Source of the DNA: Candidatus Uhrbacteria bacterium RIFCSPLOWO2_01_FULL_47_25
GTDB taxonomy: Bacteria; Patescibacteriota; Patescibacteriia; GWA2-46-9
Reading direction: 5' to 3'
Length of the DNA stretch: 41,043 nt
NCBI GenBank assembly: GCA_001791325.1
Contig: MGEK01000002.1
Location: forward strand, 1 to 41,043
This document shows, in pieces, positions 23,870 through 27,022 of this stretch; the first letter of the stretch is position 1; each line of letters begins with the position of its first letter. The notes beneath the pieces are model-generated. The model ran no database searches and was not told the DNA's origin. It saw nothing but the letters and a program-made list of their open reading frames with translations. Both the position numbers and the translations under genes were made by a program.

Positions 23870-24118
23870 ATGAGAATACGCATTGACAGAAATAAATGCA
23901 TTGGCGCGGCGGCTTGTGTTGCCTTGCCGTCAAAAGTGTTTAAGTTGGATACAAAAAATAAGGCCGTCATCCGGCATAAAGATGGGGCCGAATCGTCAGA
24001 ATGAGCGGAATACTACGGAATTGACGCCGCGGCAGAAGATTTAATCGCCGCCGCCGAGTTATGCCCAACATTGGCTATTATCATTGAAGACGATAACGGT
24101 AATCAAATTTATCCATAA
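23870..24118 (+). pseudogene. Short ferredoxin interrupted by in-frame TGA (codon 45)
   Basis: Translation MRIRIDRNKCIGAAACVALPSKVFKLDTKNKAVIRHKDGAESSE*AEYYGIDAAAEDLIAAAELCPTLAIIIEDDNGNQIYP; TGA at 24002-24004. Confidence 0.7.
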
Positions 24119-24134
24119 TTTGTATTTCAGACGA

Positions 24135-24896
24135 TTATTTTTGGCCTCTAAAGTTTTGAAATATCTTCTGTACTCTATTCAAGCAGTAGCTTGGTCTTTC
24201 TATAATATCTTTTTCTTTCAACCTTATGACGCACCAGCCTAGTTGCTCAAGAAACGCATCTTTCATTTTGTCTTTTCTAATTTGCAATTTGCCTGAATGT
24301 GATTTGTAATTATCACACTCAATGGCTATGGTACCTCGATTGCAAAATACAACCAAATCAATGCGATACCGTCTGCGCCCTCGCGAGATTGTGTATTCTC
24401 GCCGACTCTTAATGCCCAATCGGTCAAGCCCTTTCTTAATGATTTGTTCAATTGGTGGAACATTGTAGAGCTCCAAAATATTACGTGAAGAAGACAGTTT
24501 GGAGAAACTCGTGAAGCCGAAAGAAACCCTTCGAGGAATGATGTTTTTTATTGGCCGAGCAAGTTTTTCAATCTTAGAAAATTTAAACTTCATATAATCA
24601 TCGTGCGTCCGAGGATGAACTCGTTCGGCCGGCAGTAAATCAATCCTCTTCACCTTTTCTATCTTCGTGATACGTCCGTAATACTCAATACGCTTTCCTC
24701 TTTTACCAAATAAGACTGGCTGATAGAAAGCCAAGTAGTCAAAATGGCGTTTGGGTAGGAAGGCAATCGGAATTCTATACCAGTGTTTCTGGAGAAGAAT
24801 TTTTCGGTCATTCTTACTTCTAAGCACGCCAACCAATACAACACCTCCCGCAGTTTGTGTTTCTCTTCGGCCATTGAGCATTGGCCTCGAATTCAT
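24135..24896 (-). CDS. PD-(D/E)XK (DUF559/Vsr-like) endonuclease with uncharacterised N-terminal domain
   Basis: RREYTISRGRRRYRIDLVVFCNRGTIAIECDNYKSH...RKDKMKDAFLEQLGWCVIRL. Confidence 0.75.
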   Translation of the reverse strand: MNSRPMLNGRRETQTAGGVVLVGVLRSKNDRKILLQKHWYRIPIAFLPKRHFDYLAFYQPVLFGKRGKRIEYYGRITKIEKVKRIDLLPAERVHPRTHDDYMKFKFSKIEKLARPIKNIIPRRVSFGFTSFSKLSSSRNILELYNVPPIEQIIKKGLDRLGIKSRREYTISRGRRRYRIDLVVFCNRGTIAIECDNYKSHSGKLQIRKDKMKDAFLEQLGWCVIRLKEKDIIERPSYCLNRVQKIFQNFRGQK

Positions 24897-24917
24897 AATT
24901 GATTCAAATAATTTTTA

Positions 24918-24946
24918 AGAATATTCTAACATTCTCACATTCTCAA
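24918..24946 (-). promoter_or_regulatory. Predicted promoter of nuclease gene, overlapping palindrome site 1
   Basis: On minus strand TTGAGA-N17-TATTCT (-35 = 24941-24946, -10 = 24918-24923), ~15 nt leader to ATG 24896. Confidence 0.55.
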
Positions 24947-24960
24947 GAATGTTAGAATGT
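24929..24960. promoter_or_regulatory. 32-nt palindromic operator-like site 1
   Basis: ACATTCTCACATTCTCAAGAATGTTAGAATGT; overlaps HTH stop codon and nuclease promoter. Confidence 0.65.
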
Positions 24961-25218
24961 TTTTGTAAAGTCAACAAATCGCTTGCCATAAGGCGAAAGG
25001 GAGTGAGCAACTTCACGGCCTTGATATTTTTTATTCAACAGACCAGCCTGCATAAGGCGTCGCGTGTGTTCGGAAATGGTTTTGATATTACAATCAAGAA
25101 TCTCGGCAATTTTTGCCAAGGTTATGCCATCGTTTTTGCTGATTAAATGCAAAATATCCAGCCGTCTATGATTCGCCGCGCCCTTAAAATATCTTTCCAA
25201 TTGTTTTGCAGTCTTCAT
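24952..25218 (-). CDS. ArsR-like winged-helix transcriptional regulator
   Basis: FKGAANHRRLDILHLISKNDGITLAKIAEILDCNIKTISEHTRRLMQAGLLNKKYQGREVAHSLSPYGKRFVDF. Confidence 0.85.
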   Translation of the reverse strand: MKTAKQLERYFKGAANHRRLDILHLISKNDGITLAKIAEILDCNIKTISEHTRRLMQAGLLNKKYQGREVAHSLSPYGKRFVDFTKTF

Positions 25219-25227
25219 ATCATTATC

Positions 25228-25256
25228 ATAGTATCACAACATTCTCACATTCTCAA
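25228..25256 (-). promoter_or_regulatory. Predicted promoter of HTH gene, overlapping site 2
   Basis: On minus strand TTGAGA-N17-TACTAT (-35 = 25251-25256, -10 = 25228-25233); near-leaderless relative to ATG 25218. Confidence 0.55.
25239..25254. promoter_or_regulatory. Half-site of the 32-nt palindrome, site 2
   Basis: ACATTCTCACATTCTC, identical to the left half of site 1; right half degenerate. Confidence 0.55.
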
Positions 25257-25431
25257 AGACTCATAATCGTGAAAAATAGGCGGAAATTGTTATATATTCA
25301 CGGTTTTAGTCGTAACTCCCAGTAAAAGCCGACCCTGCCGAGCCATTCACGCTATTTATTATAGGTGTAAATTTCTTTCGCGTATTCGCACGAATTAGAG
25401 AATAAAAAACTATTCAATAATCAACTACATA

Positions 25432-25463
25432 ACATTCCAACATTCTCAAGAATGTGAGAATGT
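25432..25463. promoter_or_regulatory. 32-nt palindromic site 3
   Basis: ACATTCCAACATTCTCAAGAATGTGAGAATGT. Confidence 0.6.
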
Positions 25464-25572
25464 TATTTATTGCCCATTGATTTATGTAATACGCTGACAA
25501 ATAATTCTTTCAATTTTGCGCGTTGTTCAACCAATTGTTTTTTATAATCCTTAATTTTGATTCTAGCCCTAG
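25463..25572 (-). pseudogene. Possible HsdS C-terminal remnant
   Basis: Minus-strand frame reads RARIKIKDYKKQLVEQRAKLKELFVSVLHKSMGNK*, like the C-terminal coiled coil/LFxSxLHKxM tail of type I specificity subunits; no intact upstream ORF. Confidence 0.4.
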
Positions 25573-25807: not shown

Positions 25808-27022
25808 ATGTCTCCGCATCAGTGTAAGCACGGTGCGGGGCAGGCTGGCGGCAAGCTAAAGAGAAGAGGAAAAACTGTCTTCGTAGCGATGTCAGGTGGC
25901 GTGGATTCCAGCGTGGCGGCTTTGCTTTTGAAAAAGCAAGGTTATGATGTAGTTGGCGTTTTTATTAAGAGTTGGGACGGGTTGTCAACGAGTGATGGTG
26001 TAAAATTTCGCGAGCAGTGTAGATGGAGAGAAGACAGGCGCGACGCTATGCGCGTGGCGGCTAAACTGAAAATTCCGTTTGTAACGTATAATTTCACAAA
26101 ACCATACCGGGACAGGGTGATTGAATATTTTTTTAAAGAGCACGAAGCAGGTCGCACGCCGAATCCTGATATAATGTGCAATAAAGAAATTAAATTTAAA
26201 TTATTTTTAGAGAAGGCCTTGAGCGAGGGCGCTGATTTTGTGGCGACGGGGCACTATGTAAGAGTGCGAGCTAGAAGCCATAAGCCAAAAGCCGTAGGCA
26301 GCTTGGGCCGTGTAAATAGTGCGAGTATCTTTGACCTTTTGCAGGCTAAAGACGGCGCCAAAGATCAGTCGTATTTTTTGTGGACGCTAACCCAGAAGCA
26401 ACTTGCTTATTGCCTTTTTCCAATCGGCGAATACACGAAATCAAAGGTGCGAGAGATGGCGCGCCAAGCTGATCTGCCGACGGCTGACAAACCCGATAGC
26501 CAGGGGATTTGTTTTATTGGCGAAGTGCCGGTTGTTGAATTTTTAAAAACCCGCATAGCCGAGCGAACAGGCGCAGTGGTGACGGCTGACGGGCGAACAA
26601 TAGGGGAGCACGACGGCATAGCATTTTACACCATTGGCCAACGGCACGGCTTAAGATTGAGTTCGCGCTTACCATATTATGTGTTTGGTAAAGATATTGA
26701 GCATAATATCATCAAAGTGGCAGAAGGTAATGATGATCAAGCGCTTTACCAAGATAAAATTGAAGCAAGTGAGATGTCGTGGGTTAATCAAGCGCCGCAA
26801 ATAGGTGATAGATTACTAGCTAAAATCAGATATCGCCAAAAATCAGAGCCGCTTATGGTTGTGGGCAGTCGTGAAGCGTCCAAAAAACATTCTAATATTC
26901 TTAAGAATGTTGGAATGTTGTGGCGGTTTAAATTTGACCGACCACAAAGAGCGGTCACCCCCGGCCAGTCACTGGTGTTTTACGACGGCAAGAGAATGGT
27001 CGGTGGGGGAGTGATATTATAA
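25808..27022 (+). CDS. mnmA: tRNA-specific 2-thiouridylase MnmA
   Basis: VFVAMSGGVDSSVAALLLKKQGYDVVGVFIK; GRTPNPDIMCNKEIKF; ATGHYVRV; KDQSYFLW; DSQGICFIGEV; IGQRHGL. Start uncertain. Confidence 0.95.
   Translation: MSPHQCKHGAGQAGGKLKRRGKTVFVAMSGGVDSSVAALLLKKQGYDVVGVFIKSWDGLSTSDGVKFREQCRWREDRRDAMRVAAKLKIPFVTYNFTKPYRDRVIEYFFKEHEAGRTPNPDIMCNKEIKFKLFLEKALSEGADFVATGHYVRVRARSHKPKAVGSLGRVNSASIFDLLQAKDGAKDQSYFLWTLTQKQLAYCLFPIGEYTKSKVREMARQADLPTADKPDSQGICFIGEVPVVEFLKTRIAERTGAVVTADGRTIGEHDGIAFYTIGQRHGLRLSSRLPYYVFGKDIEHNIIKVAEGNDDQALYQDKIEASEMSWVNQAPQIGDRLLAKIRYRQKSEPLMVVGSREASKKHSNILKNVGMLWRFKFDRPQRAVTPGQSLVFYDGKRMVGGGVIL
26887..26918. repeat. 32-nt palindromic site 4, inside mnmA
   Basis: ACATTCTAATATTCTTAAGAATGTTGGAATGT. 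Confidence 0.6.

Follow-up and report, generated by a model that had tools for sequence, protein, structure and literature searches.

To our knowledge, Rickettsia supplies most of the known cases of small palindromic repeats within reading frames, and we know of no companion regulator gene bracketed by the Rickettsia palindromic elements (RPEs). The spread of GTAG-type REPs is thought to be due to a tyrosine transposase. RPEs, which measure about 150 bp, lie in-frame in unrelated housekeeping genes (PMC10969869). In the REP/REPIN systems with RAYT (REPtrons), palindromes of 20–40 bp flank the companion gene, and solo copies follow genes, stand between tandem or convergent ones and are sometimes found within them (PMC3733652, PMC3116915). 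PARCEL is described as an intragenic palindromic coding repeat of repeat proteins with a patchy distribution (PMC2996958). In the openly licensed literature we found no earlier description of a palindrome-HTH family and no relevant paper on ArsR-associated palindromes in bacteria of the candidate phyla radiation.

We analysed a stretch of 41,043 nucleotides from Candidatus Uhrbacteria bacterium RIFCSPLOWO2_01_FULL_47_25 (the window). We conclude, with a probability of about 0.68, that it carries members of a REP/RPE-like family of 34-bp palindromes that are scattered through genomes and appear to be mobile, and that this family is tied to a one-gene unit consisting of palindrome, winged-helix gene and palindrome. 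The first-pass annotation had reported a nuclease open reading frame (24135–24896, minus strand) and an HTH open reading frame (24952–25218, minus strand), two 32-nt palindromes, a half copy and two TTGAGA-N17 promoters, all of which are present. Reading of the window confirmed the palindromes at 24929–24960 and 25432–25463 and the half copy at 25239–25254, and the repeats greatly exceed chance expectation: the 16-nt palindrome core has six matches against 0.49 expected, and the direct-repeat half has eight against 0.38. The region shows no enrichment of promoter-like sites as a class (8 seen, 6.0 expected), and no Rfam family matched the window. Absent from that annotation were a copy within mnmA, the dispersed copies in the genome and the overlap of 24928–24961 with a stop codon.

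The HTH gene is bracketed by palindromes on both sides. The downstream copy (24928–24961) overlaps the HTH stop codon (AAA ACA TTC TAA), encodes the final codons of the window's HTH protein and supplies TTGAGA-N17-TATTCT (24946–24918, minus strand) to the nuclease. Upstream, a degenerate half palindrome (25239–25254) forms the spacer of the HTH promoter, TTGAGA-N17-TACTAT (25256–25228, minus strand); a full dyad occupies this position in most HTH homologues, and the window has a half only. A further palindrome (25431–25464), without a full-length gene of its own, comes right after a tail resembling the C terminus of HsdS (QRAKLKELF..LHKS; 25464–25560, minus strand), which looks like a remnant. 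A second HsdS-like tail with a palindrome was seen at 43.5 kb of contig C6 in the same genome (L109:7521-7608), with 73% identity over 124 nt. Finally, the copy at 26886–26919 (plus strand) lies in-frame within mnmA and encodes KHSNILKNVGML.

The bracketed gene encodes an 88-aa ArsR/MarR-like protein with Pfam matches to HTH_24/MarR/HTH_5. Its winged-helix fold is confidently predicted by AlphaFold (pLDDT 90; order H-H-H-H-E-E-H). The annotation had taken it for an autoregulated ArsR-like repressor. That claim stands in part: the winged helix is of the ArsR/MarR-like type, and in homologues the upstream palindrome lies over the -35 box and spacer, making autoregulation plausible. The protein scores 44.4 bits against the ArsR/SmtB family model NF033788, below the cut-off of 55. 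Judged from the homologue alignment, it lacks a metal-binding cysteine motif, and its single Cys is not conserved. Sixteen of the 381 class genomes, representing 15 genera, carry the family, as do one more genome contig and one viral contig; the HTH loci number about 25, mainly from the 15 HTH-positive genera. IMG/VR yielded one contig with HTH gene, palindromes and tspO and 0 matches with a second palindrome pattern; a search of phage records returned no HTH match.

Gene and palindrome co-occur across the class. Nearly every HTH homologue has one palindrome just ahead of its ATG and a second one at its stop codon or extending over it, and the last HTH codons are often encoded by the palindrome (FQHS-stop, RTLE-stop). 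The upstream copy is absent in G254, about 140 nt off in G048 and a half in the window; the downstream copy is absent in the C3 and C58 paralogues and a half only in the RTLE types. Palindromes were detected in 14 of 16 HTH-positive genomes versus 16 of 365 HTH-negative ones (Fisher 1.3e-15), and, among selected genomes, in 13/13 versus 0/14. The 16 palindrome-positive genomes without an HTH match are so classed at a strict HTH cut-off, and two of them (G375 and G194) have more distantly related HTH genes, again with palindromes on their flanks. The sites divide into 40 HTH-flanking and 57 solo copies, the latter persisting once flanks are set aside. Dense local arrays surround the HTH gene in L093 (735, 2222, 3247, 3576 and 4989; five in 4.3 kb) and L106 (4072-4924). 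At L167:2789-3771 two palindromes bracket an antirepressor open reading frame (BRO-like, by eye) instead of an HTH gene.

In the window's own genome (G000; 1.2 Mb, 40 contigs), a degenerate palindrome pattern found eight sites and the reversed control pattern none; a structure-aware model, derived from 30 copies and with HTH flanks from the genomes searched as part of its training set, gave 32 strand-matches, or about 16 sites. The family is thus REP-like in length and copy number (34 bp, multicopy, mostly extragenic). Sequence variants occur (ATTCT, ATCCTTACATACT and ATTCGC), and the palindromes are genome-specific: solo copies are identical to their own genome's HTH palindromes at 29.6 of 34 positions and to those of other genomes at 26.1, a difference reached in 0 of 5000 relabellings. 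Within G000, moreover, the variant follows the HTH paralogue, ATTCGC adjoining the one at C6:29751. A scatter of several to about 16 sites in a genome, with some of them intragenic, could also befit chromosome-organising sites of the parS/matS type, bound by the HTH protein as a small nucleoid protein. Such a role appears very improbable, given the patchy occurrence of the HTH gene (16/381 genomes), the several paralogues each with a palindrome variant of its own, the different genes hit in different genomes and the clustering of sites round the HTH gene.

We next consider whether the palindromes are operators. Among the 57 solo sites, whose gene contexts come from a simple ORF caller, 44 are extragenic, 10 intragenic and 3 unassigned; 31 lie between tandem genes, 9 between convergent genes (1.6 expected) and 10 within genes (41 expected). 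Of 19 HTH upstream sites, 9 are followed by a strong, correctly spaced -10 box, against a background of 3%, and solos are at background. A conventional ArsR-like repressor that controls both itself and a regulon, in which every palindrome is an operator and the dispersed copies control adjoining genes, would explain why upstream copies span the -35 box and spacer and are followed by TATAAT-like -10 boxes, and why the variant tracks the HTH paralogue within G000. The dyad is also retained through changes on both sides, although the sites were picked as palindromes and the count is not independent evidence. However, the -10 boxes of solo sites occur at the background rate, nine solos lie between convergent genes and ten within coding sequence, so that regulation accounts for the upstream copy but not for the remaining ones, and we consider a regulon unlikely. 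Likewise, the proposal that the palindrome is an operator common to the HTH and nuclease genes does not hold, since the majority of copies are not promoters and housekeeping genes contain some of them. Of all the copies, just the one ahead of the HTH gene has the appearance of an operator-promoter; the solos look like inserted repeats, not operators.

Palindromes are inserted in-frame in housekeeping genes, namely mnmA, tsaD, uvrC, murC, femAB, tspO and the gene for an RlmKL-type methyltransferase. In the first six, the copy is read in a single phase, giving (K/Q)H-x-x-I-L-(E/K)-N-V-R-M or nearly so; the methyltransferase copy is read in another. The mnmA gene of the window (tRNA 2-thiouridylase; 25808–27022, plus strand) matches a solved MnmA with an E value of 3.5e-92, and solved MnmA proteins have a 14-residue gap opposite the palindrome-encoded stretch. 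The same insertion, with a different palindrome variant, is present in the same-genus genome G001, and at least some copies are thus old. The inserted residues are absent from TsaD of relatives without the palindrome, as are 18 aa from FemAB of a same-family genome (G002) and 7 aa from TspO (three with the palindrome, two without), these empty sites being taken from same-family or more distant relatives and falling partly in variable loops. For UvrC, MurC and the methyltransferase a clean empty site was not obtained, and tsaD and femAB were not found in G001 (88% complete). That the extra residues are absent in relatives also counts against the regulon.

A rearrangement breakpoint coincides with a palindrome. 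On contig C6 of G000, the HTH unit is joined directly to the C-terminal half of tspO; the junction falls precisely on a palindrome, and the tspO frame runs out of it. In six genomes or contigs (L070, L096, L097, L109, L182 and L167), tspO is part of a palindrome locus or lies no more than a few kb from one, and three times the palindrome occupies an identical codon, a pattern that may reflect a tspO-HTH link. No direct repeats of at least 4 nt that could mark a target-site duplication, a hallmark of DNA transposons and MITEs, occur at the palindrome ends (3-nt repeats, 4 versus 1.4 expected), and the sequence flanking the palindromes outwards is rich in A and poor in G. No polymorphic insertion between strains was seen. 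A RAYT was considered as mobiliser and rejected, as a genome search for Y1_Tnp (PF01797) found none in G000.

The nuclease (24135–24896) lies outside the palindrome-bracketed unit. It combines an ASCH-like N-terminal fold with a Vsr/DUF559-type PD-(D/E)XK C-terminal domain (Pfam PF18741, 9.4e-13, and PF04480), and Foldseek matched ASCH 5y6c and the homing endonuclease I-Bth0305I 3r3p. D180, E193-C-D195-N and H200 are invariant across five homologues and are candidate catalytic residues. The first-pass annotation had joined this gene to the HTH gene in a defence or addiction cassette with a common operator, a reading now largely refuted and, in our estimation, highly improbable. The genes are adjacent in the window with matching promoters, both families adjoin in one distant genome (L034), and the nuclease motif is intact. 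However, the nuclease adjoins only these 2 of about 25 HTH loci, with opposite gene orders, and about 23 other loci have other neighbours, which vary from locus to locus. Three of five nuclease genomes (G089, G111 and G133) have neither the HTH gene nor palindromes, and PADLOC gave weak matches to the nuclease and HTH folds, with no system match beyond the common nuclease fold. The check proposed in that annotation, of relatives' HTH loci for nuclease and palindrome, gave a divided answer: the palindrome was at nearly every homologue, and the nuclease was mostly absent. A plasmid search gave one partial nuclease match. Overall, the nuclease is an independent gene and a chance neighbour of the HTH gene.

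Other neighbours at individual loci deserve mention. A PDDEXK_1-type gene (MSxYYxxxR...LSRSKIDLFxxCPRCFYLDRR) adjoins a palindrome in three genomes (L097:7928-8692, L104:5668-6420 and L167:3810-4565), and in two different genomes the HTH locus is preceded by a gene for a PIF1-like helicase (L034:3227-4960 and L110:3725-5452). In the window itself, a ferredoxin-like open reading frame (23870–24119, plus strand) has an in-frame TGA (GAESSE-stop-AEYYGID...CPTLAI); TGA terminates 4 of 31 window genes, and the frame represents a pseudogene, an assembly error or recoding.

Returning to the dispersed palindrome family tied to a winged-helix gene, we propose that an HTH dimer would bind the palindrome, each arm of which has an 8-bp repeated half-site, CATnC, the two half-sites of an arm being 8 bp apart; because the half-site is repeated on each arm, two dimers probably bind per palindrome. 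At the upstream copy, the centre of the palindrome supplies TTGAGA as -35 box and the arm serves as spacer, such that HTH binding would repress the protein's own gene. Solo palindromes may have spread by copying or recombination, with the HTH protein as a binding and control factor. A more tentative proposal, which we think improbable, is that the palindrome-HTH-palindrome unit is a minimal selfish element, in which a single winged-helix protein, about 90 residues long and lacking any recognisable catalytic domain, promotes multiplication of the 34-bp site it binds around the chromosome, also into reading frames. If the HTH protein drives or licenses the spread, the unit would rank among very small mobile elements; if not, a regulator's operator would have turned into a scattered repeat that supplies essential proteins with new peptide loops. 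The locus offers a comparable repeat family in small-genome bacteria, tied to a gene for a DNA-binding protein only, and its description corrects a likely misreading of the locus as a defence cassette.

How, then, does the family compare with known systems? It resembles ArsR/SmtB autorepressors in its winged-helix fold and in a dyad operator-like site over its own promoter, but differs in its sub-cut-off score and in palindromes that also follow the stop codon and are dispersed. With PARCEL, as described, it shares palindromic sequence within coding genes and a patchy distribution. Like RPEs, its members lie in-frame within unrelated housekeeping genes; unlike RPEs, they measure 34 rather than about 150 bp, occur in a different bacterial group and are tied to a winged-helix gene. 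Palindrome size, flanking of the companion gene and solo placement all match REP/RAYT systems, but no GTAG/CGTC tag was recognised in the 34-nt alignment, and a winged-helix protein stands in the place of the Y1 tyrosine transposase as companion. By analogy, the family appears to work most like REP and RPE repeats, and it is set apart as a member of neither because it differs from them in tag, size and transposase.
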